Shown here piece by piece: positions 17,372 through 22,144 of a DNA stretch of 64,000 nt. Positions within the stretch are counted from its first letter, which is position 1; the number at the start of each line of letters is the position of its first letter. Made by a program: the position numbers and the translations under genes. This DNA is from Clostridia bacterium (GTDB taxonomy: Bacteria; Bacillota; Clostridia; Monoglobales; Monoglobaceae). Below the pieces are notes generated by a model. It did no database searches. It was given only the letters and a program-made list of their open reading frames with translations, and had not been told where the DNA came from. The stretch spans positions 1 through 64,000 of the forward strand of contig JAFQIA010000007.1 in assembly GCA_017397725.1 (NCBI GenBank), read 5' to 3'.

Positions 17372-18124
17372 ATGGGAGTTATTCAAATGAAGCAGTTGCT
17401 TGAAGCAGGTGTTCACTTCGGACACCAGACCCGTCGTTGGAACCCTAAAATGGCGGAGTACATTTTCACCGAGAGAAATGGTATTTATATCATCGATCTC
17501 CAGAAGACCGTAAAGAAGATTGAGGAAGCTTACTACTTTATTCGTGACATCGCAGCAGATGGCGGAAACATTCTTTTTGTCGGCACCAAAAAGCAGGCAC
17601 AGGATGCAATCCGTGAAGAGGCTGAGCGTACCGGTATGTATTTTGTAAACGCAAGATGGCTGGGCGGTATGCTGACCAACTTCAAGACCATCAAGAAGAG
17701 AATCGAGCGTCTTTATCAGTTGGAAAAGATGGCAGAAGACGGCACCATGGCTCTGCTTCCCAAGAAAGAGGTTATCAAACTGAACCTGGAGCAGGAAAAG
17801 CTGGAGAAGTTCCTGGGCGGTATCAAAGAGATGAAAGACCTGCCCGCTGCTCTGTTCGTAGTTGACCCCAGAAAAGAAAAGAACGCAATCGCAGAGGCAC
17901 ACAAGCTGGGTATTCCGGTAATCGCAATCGTTGATACCAACTGTGACCCTGAAGAGGCTGACTTCCCCATCCCCGGTAACGACGATGCAATCCGCGCGGT
18001 AAAACTGATTGTTTCTACCATCGGTAACGCAATCATCGAGGGCAGACAGGGCGAGCAGAACGCTCCCGCTGCTGCTGAGGAGACCGAGGCTGAAGTATCC
18101 TTGGATATGCTTGACGAAGAATAA
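17372..18124 (+). CDS. rpsB: 30S ribosomal protein S2
   Basis: The 250-residue protein shows the S2 signature [21 protein letters not shown] at the start, [15 protein letters not shown], and the second signature [20 protein letters not shown] followed by [13 protein letters not shown]. It ends in an Ala/Glu-rich tail. GGAGGTG lies seven bases before the ATG. It is followed by tsf after 45 bases, the near-universal bacterial order. Confidence 0.98.
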
Positions 18125-18169: not shown

Positions 18170-19081
18170 ATGGCATTTACTGCACAAGATGTTAAAAAGT
18201 TGAGAGAAATGACCAACTGCGGTATGATGGACTGCAAAAAAGCCCTGACCGAAACCGACGGCGATATGGACAAGGCTGTGGAGTTCCTGAGAGAAAAGGG
18301 ACTTGCTACCGCTGCTAAAAAAGCAGGCAGAATCGCATCTGAGGGTATGGTTGAAGCAATCGTCATTGACGGTGTTGGTGTTGCTGTTGAAGTAAACTCC
18401 GAAACCGACTTTGTTGCAAAGAATGCAGATTTCCAGAACTTTGTACACGCAATTGCAGAAGTTATCGCAAAAGAGAACCCCGCTGACGTTGAGGCTCTGA
18501 AGGAAATGAAGATCAGCGACAGCCAGACTGTTGGCGAAGCATTGACCGAGAAAATCGCTACCATCGGCGAGAATATGAACATCCGTCGTTTTGAGCGTTT
18601 TGATGGTGTCAATCAGGCATACATTCATGCCGGTGGCAGAATCGGTGTTCTGGTAAACTTTGAAGTTGCTGACGCTTCCAAAGCAAACGACGAAGCTTTC
18701 GTTACCATGGCAAAGGACGTTGCAATGCAGATTGCAGCAATCGCTCCTCAGTATGTTCGTGAAGAAGAGGTTCCCGCTGACGTAGTGGAACACGAAAAGG
18801 GCATCCTGAAAGCACAGGCACTCAATGAGGGCAAGCCCGAAGCAATCGTTGAAAAGATGATTGTTGGCCGTATCAAGAAGTTCTTCAAGGACATCTGTCT
18901 GGTAGAACAACCCTTTGTTAAGGATGGCGACATCACCGTTGGCAAGTATGTAGAGAACGTTGCAAAATCTCTGGGCACCGAAATCAAGATTGCAAAATTT
19001 GCACGTCTTGAAAAGGGTGAAGGCCTGGAAAAGAGAGAAGACAACTTTGCAGACGAAGTTGCAAAGATGATGGGCAACTAA
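18170..19081 (+). CDS. tsf: Elongation factor Ts
   Basis: The 303-residue guanine-nucleotide exchange factor for EF-Tu begins with the UBA-like domain LREMTNCGMMDCKKAL, then GRIASEGMV and the catalytic-core segment NSETDFVAKN. AAAGGAAG precedes the ATG by about nine bases. It shares the rpsB promoter and is closed by a terminator 16 bases after its stop. Confidence 0.98.
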   Translation: MAFTAQDVKKLREMTNCGMMDCKKALTETDGDMDKAVEFLREKGLATAAKKAGRIASEGMVEAIVIDGVGVAVEVNSETDFVAKNADFQNFVHAIAEVIAKENPADVEALKEMKISDSQTVGEALTEKIATIGENMNIRRFERFDGVNQAYIHAGGRIGVLVNFEVADASKANDEAFVTMAKDVAMQIAAIAPQYVREEEVPADVVEHEKGILKAQALNEGKPEAIVEKMIVGRIKKFFKDICLVEQPFVKDGDITVGKYVENVAKSLGTEIKIAKFARLEKGEGLEKREDNFADEVAKMMGN

Positions 19082-19096
19082 TTTCAAACAATCCAC

Positions 19097-19129
19097 AAAA
19101 GGAACGAATCTGAGATTCGTTCCTTTTTT
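19097..19129 (+). terminator. rpsB-tsf terminator
   Basis: AAGGAACGAATC-TG-AGATTCGTTCC-type hairpin preceded by A and followed by TTTTTT. Confidence 0.85.
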
Positions 19130-19471
19130 ATTTTTCATCAAAAAACGAGGCTTGTCTACACTAAAAAATCGAATTTGTCAAGAAGAAAAATAATTTATTA
19201 TGTAAACCATTTTGTAACATACTTGTAACACAAAAAATTCTCTGTCAAAATAACTCACATTTGGAAAAATCCGCAAACCCACGTTTTATCAATTATTCAC
19301 AAAGTTATCCACATTTTCCACAGTTTTGCACAGTGGAAAGTGCGAAAAGGGGAGTTTTCCACAGCCCACGCATTTATGGGAAAAGACGGACATCCGTAGT
19401 GTGACATTTGGTTTACAATAAAATTACAAAATTTTTTCATAGCTCGGTCCGGGATACTTTTTATTTTTTTC
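19130..19471. other. Gene-free AT-rich stretch with DnaA-box-like cluster
   Basis: No gene is supported in the 447 bases between tsf and the next start. Its centre holds five DnaA-box-like nonamers flanked on both sides by AT-rich DNA (about 19180-19260 and 19400-19475). Confidence 0.6.
19293..19363 (+). promoter_or_regulatory. Cluster of five DnaA-box-like sites
   Basis: In the same orientation I read TTATTCACA (19293-19301), the exact consensus TTATCCACA (19305-19313), TTTTCCACA (19314-19322), TTTTGCACA (19324-19332) and TTTTCCACA (19355-19363). Two fit TTATNCACA fully and three differ by one base. Such density suggests DnaA binding, either as an origin-like element, a DnaA-titration site or a regulatory region. 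Neither dnaA nor dnaN is nearby. Confidence 0.6.
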
Positions 19472-19500
19472 TTGTATGTAGAGGGAATTTATGCTATACT
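19472..19500 (+). promoter_or_regulatory. Promoter of the DUF512-der-plsY-gpsA unit
   Basis: TTGTAT (19472-19477) and TATACT (19495-19500), 17 bases apart, with TGC before the -10 element, 28 bases upstream of the first ATG. Confidence 0.7.
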
Positions 19501-19528
19501 AAAATAATAAGAAGAAAGGGGGATGCCT

Positions 19529-20803
19529 ATGTCCGCCATCATTGCAACCGTAGAACCAAAAAGTCTTGCATTTGATGCCGGAATCCGTGCCGGTGATCAG
19601 ATTCTTTCCATCAACGGGATTGCAATCTACGACTATCTGGATTATATGTATGCCTCCTGTCAAGAGGTTGTAGAGATTCAACTTGCGGACCGGTTGGTGT
19701 CCATCCCCAATGAGGATTTTATGCCGTTGGGAATCGGCTTTGACACCCTGCTCATTGATGAGCCCCGTTCCTGTCACAACCGCTGTGTCTTTTGTTTTAT
19801 CGACCAATTGCCCAAAGGAATGCGGGAAACCTGCTACTTTAAGGATGACGATTATCGTCTTTCTTTTTTACAGGGCAATTATGTGAGTATGACCAATATG
19901 AAGCAAGAGGACGTAGACCGGATTTTGCGATACAATCTTCCCCGCATCAATATCTCGGTACACACCACCAATCCGGAGCTTAGGCAAACTATGCTCCATA
20001 ACAAACGGGCAGGCGAGGTGCTTTCTTACCTGAAGCAATTCGCAGACGGCGGGCTGAACATCAACGCCCAAATCGTCCTTTGCCCCGGTTATAATGACGG
20101 CAAGGAGCTGGACCGCACCTTAGAGGATTTGGGACAGCTCGCTTACAGTATTGAAAGCATCTCCATCGTTCCGGTAGGACTTTCCGACCACCGACAGGGG
20201 CTCTCACCCTTGACCGGCTTTGACAAAGCCTCCTCCTCCGCCGTAATCAAGCAGGTTACCCGCTGGCAGGAAGAATTTTTGAAAAAATATGGTACACGTC
20301 TGGTTTATTTGGGGGATGAATTCTATCTGATGGCAGAACAAGCATTGCCGGATTATGTAAACTACGAGGGGTTCCCCCAGATTGAAAACGGTGTCGGGCT
20401 TTGCGCCTCCCTCCGCTATGAATTTTGTGAGGCGCTCAAGGACAGCCGCTTTTCTCTACCCAAAGGGAGAAAATCCATTGCCACCGGAATAAGTGCCCTG
20501 CCCCTGATTCAGGAGCTTGTGGGGATGTTAAAAGGAGACTGTATCGCCGTTTACCCGATTGAGAATCACTTTTTTGGAAAACGCATCACTGTAACCGGTC
20601 TGCTGACGGGCGGGGATTTGGTCAGCCAGCTTAAGGGCAAGGATTTGGGGGAGGAGTTATTGATTTCCTCTGCCATGCTGCGCCACAATGACACGGTGTT
20701 TTTGGACGATATGACGGTGGCAGAGCTTTCCAATCAGTTGGGCGTACTTGTGACCGTGGTACCCAATGACGGATATGCTTTGTTAGAGGCATTATTGAAA
20801 TAG
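19529..20803 (+). CDS. PDZ / radical-SAM-like DUF512 protein
   Basis: The 424-residue product has an N-terminal PDZ-like domain (residues 1-60, AFDAGIRAGDQILSING), a radical-SAM-type cluster motif CHNRCVFC followed by FIDQLPKGMR, a TIM-barrel-like region (INISVHTTNPELR), and a C-terminal DUF512 domain (PF04459) with YLGDEFYLMAEQ. Proteins of this architecture are fused-domain FeS proteins of unknown reaction and often precede der in Clostridia, as here. The second ATG (19529) is preferred because AGGGGG lies six bases upstream; the first ATG directly abuts that site. Confidence 0.88.
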   Translation: MSAIIATVEPKSLAFDAGIRAGDQILSINGIAIYDYLDYMYASCQEVVEIQLADRLVSIPNEDFMPLGIGFDTLLIDEPRSCHNRCVFCFIDQLPKGMRETCYFKDDDYRLSFLQGNYVSMTNMKQEDVDRILRYNLPRINISVHTTNPELRQTMLHNKRAGEVLSYLKQFADGGLNINAQIVLCPGYNDGKELDRTLEDLGQLAYSIESISIVPVGLSDHRQGLSPLTGFDKASSSAVIKQVTRWQEEFLKKYGTRLVYLGDEFYLMAEQALPDYVNYEGFPQIENGVGLCASLRYEFCEALKDSRFSLPKGRKSIATGISALPLIQELVGMLKGDCIAVYPIENHFFGKRITVTGLLTGGDLVSQLKGKDLGEELLISSAMLRHNDTVFLDDMTVAELSNQLGVLVTVVPNDGYALLEALLK

Positions 20804-20818: not shown

Positions 20819-22144
20819 ATGAAACCGGTAGTTGCAGTTGTGGGTCGTCCCAATGTGGGAAAATCCACCTTATTTAATAAGATTACAGGCAAACGCATCT
20901 CCATTGTCGAGGATACTCCCGGCATCACACGGGACCGCATCTATGCAGATGCAGAGTGGTGCGGACGGGAATTTACCTTGATTGACACCGGCGGCATTGA
21001 ACCGGACAGCAAGGATATCATCCTCTCCCAGATGCGGGAGCAGGCAAATATGGCGGTGGATATGGCAGATGTCATCTTGTTTATGGTGAATGTCCGGGAC
21101 GGAATGACCGCCGCAGACAAAGAGGTTGCCGCCATGCTGCAAAAGTGTGGCAGGCCGGTGCTTTTGGTCTGCAACAAGGTGGACAATCCCGGTAACCCGC
21201 CTATGGAAATGTACGAATTTTATAACTTGGGCGTTGGGGACCCCTTCCCTGTTTCCTCCATCCATGGTCTGGGCGTGGGCGATTTGCTGGACGAGGTGGT
21301 TTCCTACTTCCCGCCGGAAGAAGATCTTTCCCAGGATGAAAATGTGATCCATGTTGCCATTGTAGGAAAACCCAATGCGGGAAAATCCTCCTTGGTCAAC
21401 CGCATCTTGGGTGAGAATCGCGTGATTGTCAGCAGTATTGCAGGAACCACCCGCGACGCCATCGACAGCAATTACGAAAAAGACGGACAGAAGTATGTCT
21501 TTATCGATACTGCGGGGATGCGGAAGCGGGGTAAAATCGACGAGAATGTGGAGCGCTACAGCGTAGTGCGGGCATTGGGTGCGGTAGACCGTGCCGATGT
21601 TTGTCTGATTCTGATTGATGCCACCGAGGGCATCACCGAGCAGGATACCAAGATTGCCGGCTATGTCCACGATCAGGGCAAGGCAAGTATTGTAGTGGTT
21701 AACAAATGGGATTTGGTGGAGAAAGAAACCAATACCATGAAGAACTTCCAGAATCGGGTCAAAGAGGGACTCAACTTTATGATGTACGCCCCCTCGGTCT
21801 ATATCTCCGCCAAGACCGGACAGCGGGTTGACGGACTGTTTCAGGGGATTCAGGATGTGCTGGAGCAGAACACCAAGCGGATTTCCACCGGTCTTCTCAA
21901 TGATGTCATCAACGAGGCAATTGCCATGGTTCAGCCACCCTCGGACAAGGGCAAACGGCTGAAAATCTATTACGCCACACAGGCAGGCGTCAAACCGCCC
22001 ACCTTTGTGCTCTTTGTCAACAATGCAGAACTGGCACATTATTCCTACATCCGTTATCTGGAGAATCAGCTCCGTGCCAAGTTCGGCTTTGAGGGAACCC
22101 CGATTAAGTTTATCATTCGGGAGAAAAATAAAGGAGATCAATAA
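20819..22144 (+). CDS. der: Ribosome biogenesis GTPase Der (EngA)
   Basis: The 441-residue protein has two tandem GTPase domains. G1 motifs are GRPNVGKST (from residue 9) and GKPNAGKSS (from residue 183), each followed by TPGITRD or GTTRD, DTGG or DTAG, and NKVD or NKWD. The C-terminal KH-like domain contains KIYYATQAGVKPPTFVLFVN. Der acts in 50S subunit assembly. GGAG lies before the ATG and DUF512 ends 15 bases upstream. Confidence 0.98.
   Translation: MKPVVAVVGRPNVGKSTLFNKITGKRISIVEDTPGITRDRIYADAEWCGREFTLIDTGGIEPDSKDIILSQMREQANMAVDMADVILFMVNVRDGMTAADKEVAAMLQKCGRPVLLVCNKVDNPGNPPMEMYEFYNLGVGDPFPVSSIHGLGVGDLLDEVVSYFPPEEDLSQDENVIHVAIVGKPNAGKSSLVNRILGENRVIVSSIAGTTRDAIDSNYEKDGQKYVFIDTAGMRKRGKIDENVERYSVVRALGAVDRADVCLILIDATEGITEQDTKIAGYVHDQGKASIVVVNKWDLVEKETNTMKNFQNRVKEGLNFMMYAPSVYISAKTGQRVDGLFQGIQDVLEQNTKRISTGLLNDVINEAIAMVQPPSDKGKRLKIYYATQAGVKPPTFVLFVNNAELAHYSYIRYLENQLRAKFGFEGTPIKFIIREKNKGDQ

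Follow-up and report, generated by a model that had tools for sequence, protein, structure and literature searches.

Origins of replication in Firmicutes are bipartite and are arranged around dnaA. Outside oriC, Bacillus subtilis has six further clusters of DnaA boxes, deletion of all six leads to early initiation, and restoring one cluster to the six-deleted strain partly relieves it (PMC13220808, PMC5295017). The regions of that chromosome that bind DnaA most strongly in vitro include those downstream of jag and of gcp (PMC4447404). In Escherichia coli, the non-coding datA, DARS1 and DARS2 loci, with three to six DnaA boxes, act away from oriC, and the core of DARS consists of three such boxes (PMC4585315). 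The distance of datA and DARS from oriC is conserved (PMC5010248). Both datA and DARS2 need IHF, DARS2 also needs Fis, and B. subtilis is without IHF, datA and DARS (PMC13220808).

The element analyzed here, E, is a real, conserved DnaA-box cluster outside oriC. Similar to the B. subtilis clusters (jag/trmE, gcp/ydiF), its boxes are intergenic and lie off oriC, copies occur downstream of jag, and its core is found beside tsaD/gcp. Unlike in B. subtilis, only one cluster was found here as opposed to six, motifs matching a dif arm occur at both ends, and the element changes place between related genomes; it is also set apart by a fixed three-box core, a distinction made without a comparison of box spacing. 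The five boxes of E equal those of datA in number, an IHF site lying between boxes in datA, and a core of three boxes is also seen in DARS, where it promotes ADP release from DnaA. Unlike datA and DARS with their conserved distance from oriC, E moves. With the Firmicutes oriC it shares several DnaA boxes in AT-rich, non-coding DNA, but it is not beside dnaA, has no skew switch and shows no visible DnaA-trio run. We found no published description of E in the excerpts available from the literature on DnaA-box clusters, datA/DARS and initiator titration.

The source copy lies between tsf and a DUF512 gene in a 64-kb window (the whole stretch of 64,000 nucleotides analyzed) from a member of the Monoglobaceae (Table 1). 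A preliminary description had placed five DnaA-box-like sites at 19293-19363 in AT-rich surroundings. All five are present there on a single strand, as exact matches to TTWTNCACA within 71 bp, and G+C is 0.34 over E versus 0.50 over the window. TTWTNCACA occurs 13 times in the window against 5.7 expected. When the window was dinucleotide-shuffled 300 times, the largest group of same-strand boxes per 71 bp was 0 in 2 shuffles, 1 in 295 and 2 in 3, compared with the 5 observed. In the source assembly (G000; 1.74 Mb in 29 contigs), same-strand pairs at most 30 bp apart are confined to the cluster (4 overlapping matches), with no matches to a reversed-pattern control and no face-to-face pairs; the assembly is 84% complete, so a second cluster could be missing from it. 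Contigs C15 and C16 of this assembly carry the same box at position 24, probably a contig-end repeat. Elsewhere, seven same-strand boxes in a row were observed at a contig end (G008:C175:5462-5554, L091) in a setting unlike that of E, possibly a repeat within coding sequence.

Table 1. Features of the source window, and dif-like sites in three genomes. Coordinates are window positions unless a contig or locus is named.
Feature	Position	Strand	Basis or remark
rpsB	17372-18124		NCBIfam TIGR01011
tsf (elongation factor Ts), upstream gene	18170-19081	+	NCBIfam TIGR00116, 324 bits, over cut-off
Inverted repeat then T run, probable tsf terminator	19098-19129	+	Read by eye
E, conserved non-coding element	19177-19429	+	Alignment of 8 genomes; profile R1
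GTCAAGAA, conserved left edge of E	19177-19184	+	The 8 aligned copies vary at one position
TTATGTAAAC, left flank motif, identical to one dif arm	19198-19207	+	Comparison with B. subtilis dif
TGTAAC-N5-TGTAAC direct repeat	19213-19229	+	Close relatives only
DnaA box 1, TTATTCACA	19293-19301	+	Read in sequence, motif count
DnaA box 2, TTATCCACA, perfect consensus	19305-19313	+	Read in sequence, motif count
DnaA box 3, TTTTCCACA	19314-19322	+	Core steps kept in 32/32 copies read
DnaA box, TTTTGCACA	19324-19332	+	Exact box at +31 in the source genome only, among 32
Distal DnaA box, TTTTCCACA, 62 bp from box 1	19355-19363	+	Motif count
GTTTACAATAA (reverse TTATTGTAAAC), right flank motif, inverted relative to left	19411-19421	-	Alignment
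TTGTAT-N17-TATACT, promoter-like for DUF512, outside E	19472-19500	+	Read by eye
DUF512/radical SAM protein gene, downstream	19523-20803	+	TIGR03279, 378.6 bits, below cut-off 574.7
der, after DUF512	20819-22144		TIGR03594, over cut-off
dif-like dyad or arm with TTATGTAAAC	L413 (G000:C5 ~102430-102460)		
dif-like dyad or arm with TTATGTAAAC	L412 (G003:C56)		
dif-like dyad or arm with TTATGTAAAC	L421 (G020:C13)		

The five boxes form the core of an AT-rich, non-coding element of about 253-255 bp. Three same-strand boxes were matched in 16 of 50 relatives' genomes, and the arrangement TTATTCACA-NNN-TTWTNCACA-TTWTCCACA recurs in eight of those 16, the source genome included; the eight-genome alignment spans approximately 255 bp, from GTCAAGAA to past GGTTTACAATAA. 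Profile R1, built on sequence only, was run against 51 genomes of the order Monoglobales with at most 40 candidates scored per genome and strict filters, so that match counts may be low. It matched all 38 genomes of the source family, once in 36 and twice in two (G006 and G030), the weakest matches being a partial one in G014 and that in G007 (E-value 8e-4). Of the 13 genomes of the order that fall outside the family, 6 gave weak matches. E is thus a conserved, family-wide element of gut bacteria, present at about one copy per genome and at differing places. The second copy in G006 (C14:137755-138003, 54 bits) is more diverged. None of six weak Rfam matches to E was above the gathering score, and the consensus RNA fold (-8.2 kcal/mol) has no support; E is therefore treated as a DNA site, and an RNA gene was ruled out. 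The direct repeat TGTAAC-N5-TGTAAC, similar to the motif of WalR/YycF-type operators, is a weak lead for an OmpR-type regulator site, and an operator of that type was dropped as a main idea given that the repeat is confined to close relatives.

The box architecture was described from 32 of the 38 copies in the family, namely 30 loci of the profile search and those in G022 and G010, with G007, G009, G014, G027, G031 and G035 left out. In the source window, boxes 1 to 3 constitute the core, spaced by a 12-bp and then a 9-bp step, and the best three-box core has these steps in 32/32 copies, an agreement partly built in by a script that sought the best match at those steps. The weight given to the core thus comes from the good fit of its boxes to TTWTNCACA and not from step agreement alone: summed across the core, 8 copies show no departure, 11 show 1, 8 show 2 and 5 show 3. 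An exact distal box is present in 18 of the 32 copies, at +73 or +74 in 14 genomes and at +62 to +64 in the four genomes of the source genus; the two distances differ by about one helical turn. Across the class Clostridia, box triples whose gaps measure 0-12 bp occur in 52 of 293 genomes. Among the 75 triples listed, counting overlapping triples and related genomes separately, the gap pair (3,0) accounts for 20, followed by (0,3) with 6 and (2,3) with 5, from 169 possible pairs.

The same core extends to other Firmicutes. A strict-core scan of named genomes produced 114 stretches, of which the 80 loci listed were examined; the matches listed include Clostridia, Thermoanaerobacter wiegelii, Caldanaerobacter, Ruminiclostridium cellobioparum and Paenibacillus, and at none of the 80 is dnaA found within 3-8 kb around the core. 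Neighbors among these 80 loci, named by reading, are glycyl-tRNA synthetase (at least 16), PolC (at least 12), LepA (at least 10) and TsaD/Gcp (at least 3), and hpf is near the core in at least 9, one of them tested by NCBIfam. Further loci at class level have hpf nearby in 5 of 26 cases. Three-box clusters near this gene for a ribosome hibernation factor (L326, L318, L381, L382, L389, L393 and L398) occur in distant Clostridia and in Paenibacillus.

Does E mark the place where replication starts? E is the densest box cluster in the stretches scanned of G000:C4 and G003:C67 and in 248 kb around it in G022, but GC skew is of like sign to the left and right of E in G000:C4, G003:C67 (about 50 kb checked on each side), G006:C9 (25 and 95 kb) and G001:C27. 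The only skew sign change near E in G000 coincides with a small block of genes on the + strand (17-24 kb). In the complete genome of a relative, G022, skew turns from negative to positive near 1.155 Mb, while E is at 0.102 Mb with positive skew on both sides, 1.05 Mb from the skew minimum. Its two 16S genes, located at 1.013 Mb (-) and 1.793 Mb (+), face outward from the interval that separates them, and dnaA is at 1.345 Mb; since skew is mixed over 1.17-1.31 Mb, the origin can be placed only to within about 0.15 Mb. No DnaA-trio run was seen by eye beside the boxes, and the G-rich strand is the one that carries the boxes in 12 of 14 genomes compared (exceptions, G000 and G008).

The position of dnaA itself gives some room to an origin at E. 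In the source genome dnaA adjoins jag and two genes that we take, by sequence reading, to be rpmH and rnpA, as in other Firmicutes. The dnaA-rpmH gap is the classic Firmicutes origin position, and in the source genome (L074 14300-15700, contig C14) it contains no DnaA-box cluster. Nor is dnaA at a clear skew switch in G003, G001 or G010, and the search for the family oriC was negative, the best group of weak boxes (1.04-1.35 Mb of G022) being unconvincing. Nevertheless, skew and position lead us to reject E as an origin apart from dnaA, a reading we regard as extremely unlikely. The preliminary description had already doubted an origin, and the skew of four genomes together with the location of E in G022 upholds that doubt. 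It was right, too, that dnaA is not near the cluster (dnaA sits on contig C14) and that genes at 24-64 kb are mostly oriented toward it; the GC-skew check it proposed confirmed that there is no switch at E, but the clear switch sought at dnaA was missing from G003, G001 and G010. A terminus position for E, at best loosely suggested, was set aside as well: in G022 the element falls within a single replichore, where skew to either side has the same sign, and there is no skew switch at E in G003, G006 or G000 either.

Genes next to E differ from genome to genome, and no local gene adjoins it in all of them. In 20 of 32 copies sigH is directly upstream on the same strand (19 by clustering, G003 by tblastn), whereas the source genome has tsf as neighbor and its own sigH on contig C20 without E. 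Other neighbors are AdhE (G001), jag (G021, G024), a response regulator (G018, G021, G024) and, with names from sequence reading, NrdD (G005, G013) and GdhA and SmpB (G004, G012); the settings in G002, G008 and G015 are different again. This variation bears directly on the possibility that E is a DnaA-controlled operator of an adjacent gene, either DUF512-der or tsf. The promoter-like sequence 109 bp past the last box would suit such an operator, and some of the B. subtilis clusters are places where DnaA acts as a transcription factor (PMC4447404). Yet both upstream and downstream genes vary, the latter having convergent orientation in G018, G021 and G024, and among 29 DUF512 loci of relatives (L011-L039, some ending at contig ends) none has the box cluster. 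None of these 29 has tsf upstream of DUF512 either, and in G001 the gene preceding DUF512 is not tsf. Because the neighbors change, a local DUF512-der operator is rejected as the conserved role, and an operator reading in general appears improbable. Of the two alternatives in the preliminary description, the titration or regulatory site thus fits best, and the DUF512-der control unit is not supported.

The changing locations also raise the possibility of a small mobile element or phage-derived segment. At least six settings occur within one family, and prophage-like genes adjoin E in four genomes, among them terminase genes (L083 3371-8879; L090 11125-12684) in G001 and, of a similar kind, in G018, G021 and G024. 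Against this, 36 of 38 genomes have a single match, 20 of 32 copies keep sigH as their neighbor, neither a target duplication nor element ends were found, and the core has 0 matches in a viral collection, on which ground a phage or virus element was discarded. We consider mobility of this kind a very unlikely explanation.

The ends of E carry a second type of motif. The left flank motif, TTATGTAAAC, is identical in sequence to the right-hand arm of dif in B. subtilis, ACTTCCTAGAATATATATTATGTAAACT (PMC3025954), a likeness to Firmicutes dif and XerD-bound sites. Both flank motifs are present in 23 of 32 copies and neither in the other 9, never one alone, in genomes that are related. G005 and G013 have a variant left motif, TTACGTAAAC, and in genera g9 and g2 the left side carries one further inverted copy. 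Unlike the arms of dif, those of E face inward and are far apart, leaving no recombination core; dif has two inverted arms around a 6-8 bp center, and E, with single arms only, agrees with the dif consensus at 17 of 28 positions. Given single, inward-facing arms, binding is at most to be inferred and recombination is unlikely. With conserved sequence also running on outside the arms, E was rejected as a dif site or Xer-integrated circle. The sigH neighborhood has been left by 12 of 23 genomes with the motifs versus 0 of 9 without (Fisher p 0.012), but by genus the comparison is 4/6 versus 0/2 (p 0.43), and the link of relocation to the motifs is not relied on.

The 11-base form TTATGTAAACY has 2-6 matches in each of five genomes, not above the reversed control in four of the five, which indicates that the 11-mer itself is not rare. 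One match lies just 3' of an Xer-type tyrosine recombinase gene in each of G000, G003 and G020; two of these proteins were run against the XerC model and reached 229-231 bits, short of its cut-off of 335. The site following the gene is a candidate for the chromosomal dif, placed next to the gene of its recombinase in the manner of XerS/difSL. Flanking of DnaA boxes by dif-arm motifs appears to be a new feature. It suggests a composite site at which DnaA and an Xer recombinase would act together, for example to pause or unload SMC or to mark a late-replicating region. The two or three arm copies around the boxes in 23 of 32 copies, missing as a set from 9, agree with this, as does the same arm, as dyad or arm, beside the Xer-type gene in three genomes, and XerD of B. 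subtilis unloads SMC near the terminus (PMC8357415, PMC12322038). The unpaired arms, the frequency of the 11-base form, the nine copies that retain boxes without arms, and a relative closeness to the terminus in one genome only all count against it. Overall we judge a composite site unlikely.

By analogy with B. subtilis, we consider it reasonably likely that E serves as a sink or control site for DnaA, as the clusters of that species do; it probably controls the initiator rather than being the start site of chromosome copying. The three phased core boxes and the distal box, which share one orientation, would serve as the assembly site for DnaA; DnaA bound at E would be kept from oriC, and initiation would be delayed until more DnaA is made. 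The sequence predicts binding of DnaA to E in the cell and, on the flanking dif-arm motifs, of a second protein, possibly an Xer recombinase, and the analogy suggests an effect of E on the timing of initiation. The sink reading draws on boxes far above chance with fixed spacing at about one copy in 38/38 family genomes, on the 12-bp plus 9-bp steps as the commonest arrangement (20 of 75 triples, the next having 6), on a core away from dnaA at all 80 loci listed, on settings shared with B. subtilis DnaA regions (jag and tsaD/gcp), and on the lack of any constant local gene beside E. Counting against a sink, 13 of 32 copies have a core with 2 or 3 mismatches to the consensus, summed over its three boxes, and the single cluster contrasts with the six in B. 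subtilis.

A bolder and rather unlikely version is that E is a single movable DnaA sink with Xer/dif-arm sites at its ends, which would read both the initiator and the terminus machinery and could be retuned by moving. E would then shift place as a unit while being kept in every genome of the family, and relocation would change its copy time in the cell cycle. No tie between initiator and terminus through one site is described in the available excerpts of the literature on DnaA with dif, clusters and titration.

E bears on the means by which Firmicutes restrain initiation in the absence of Hda, SeqA, datA and DARS. With one fixed-core cluster per genome, a single deletion would be enough to test the titration idea, compared with the six required in B. 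subtilis, and the natural moves of E among related genomes offer a ready test of whether position makes a difference to a DnaA sink. Should Xer bind the flanks, E would tie control of the initiator to the terminus machinery.
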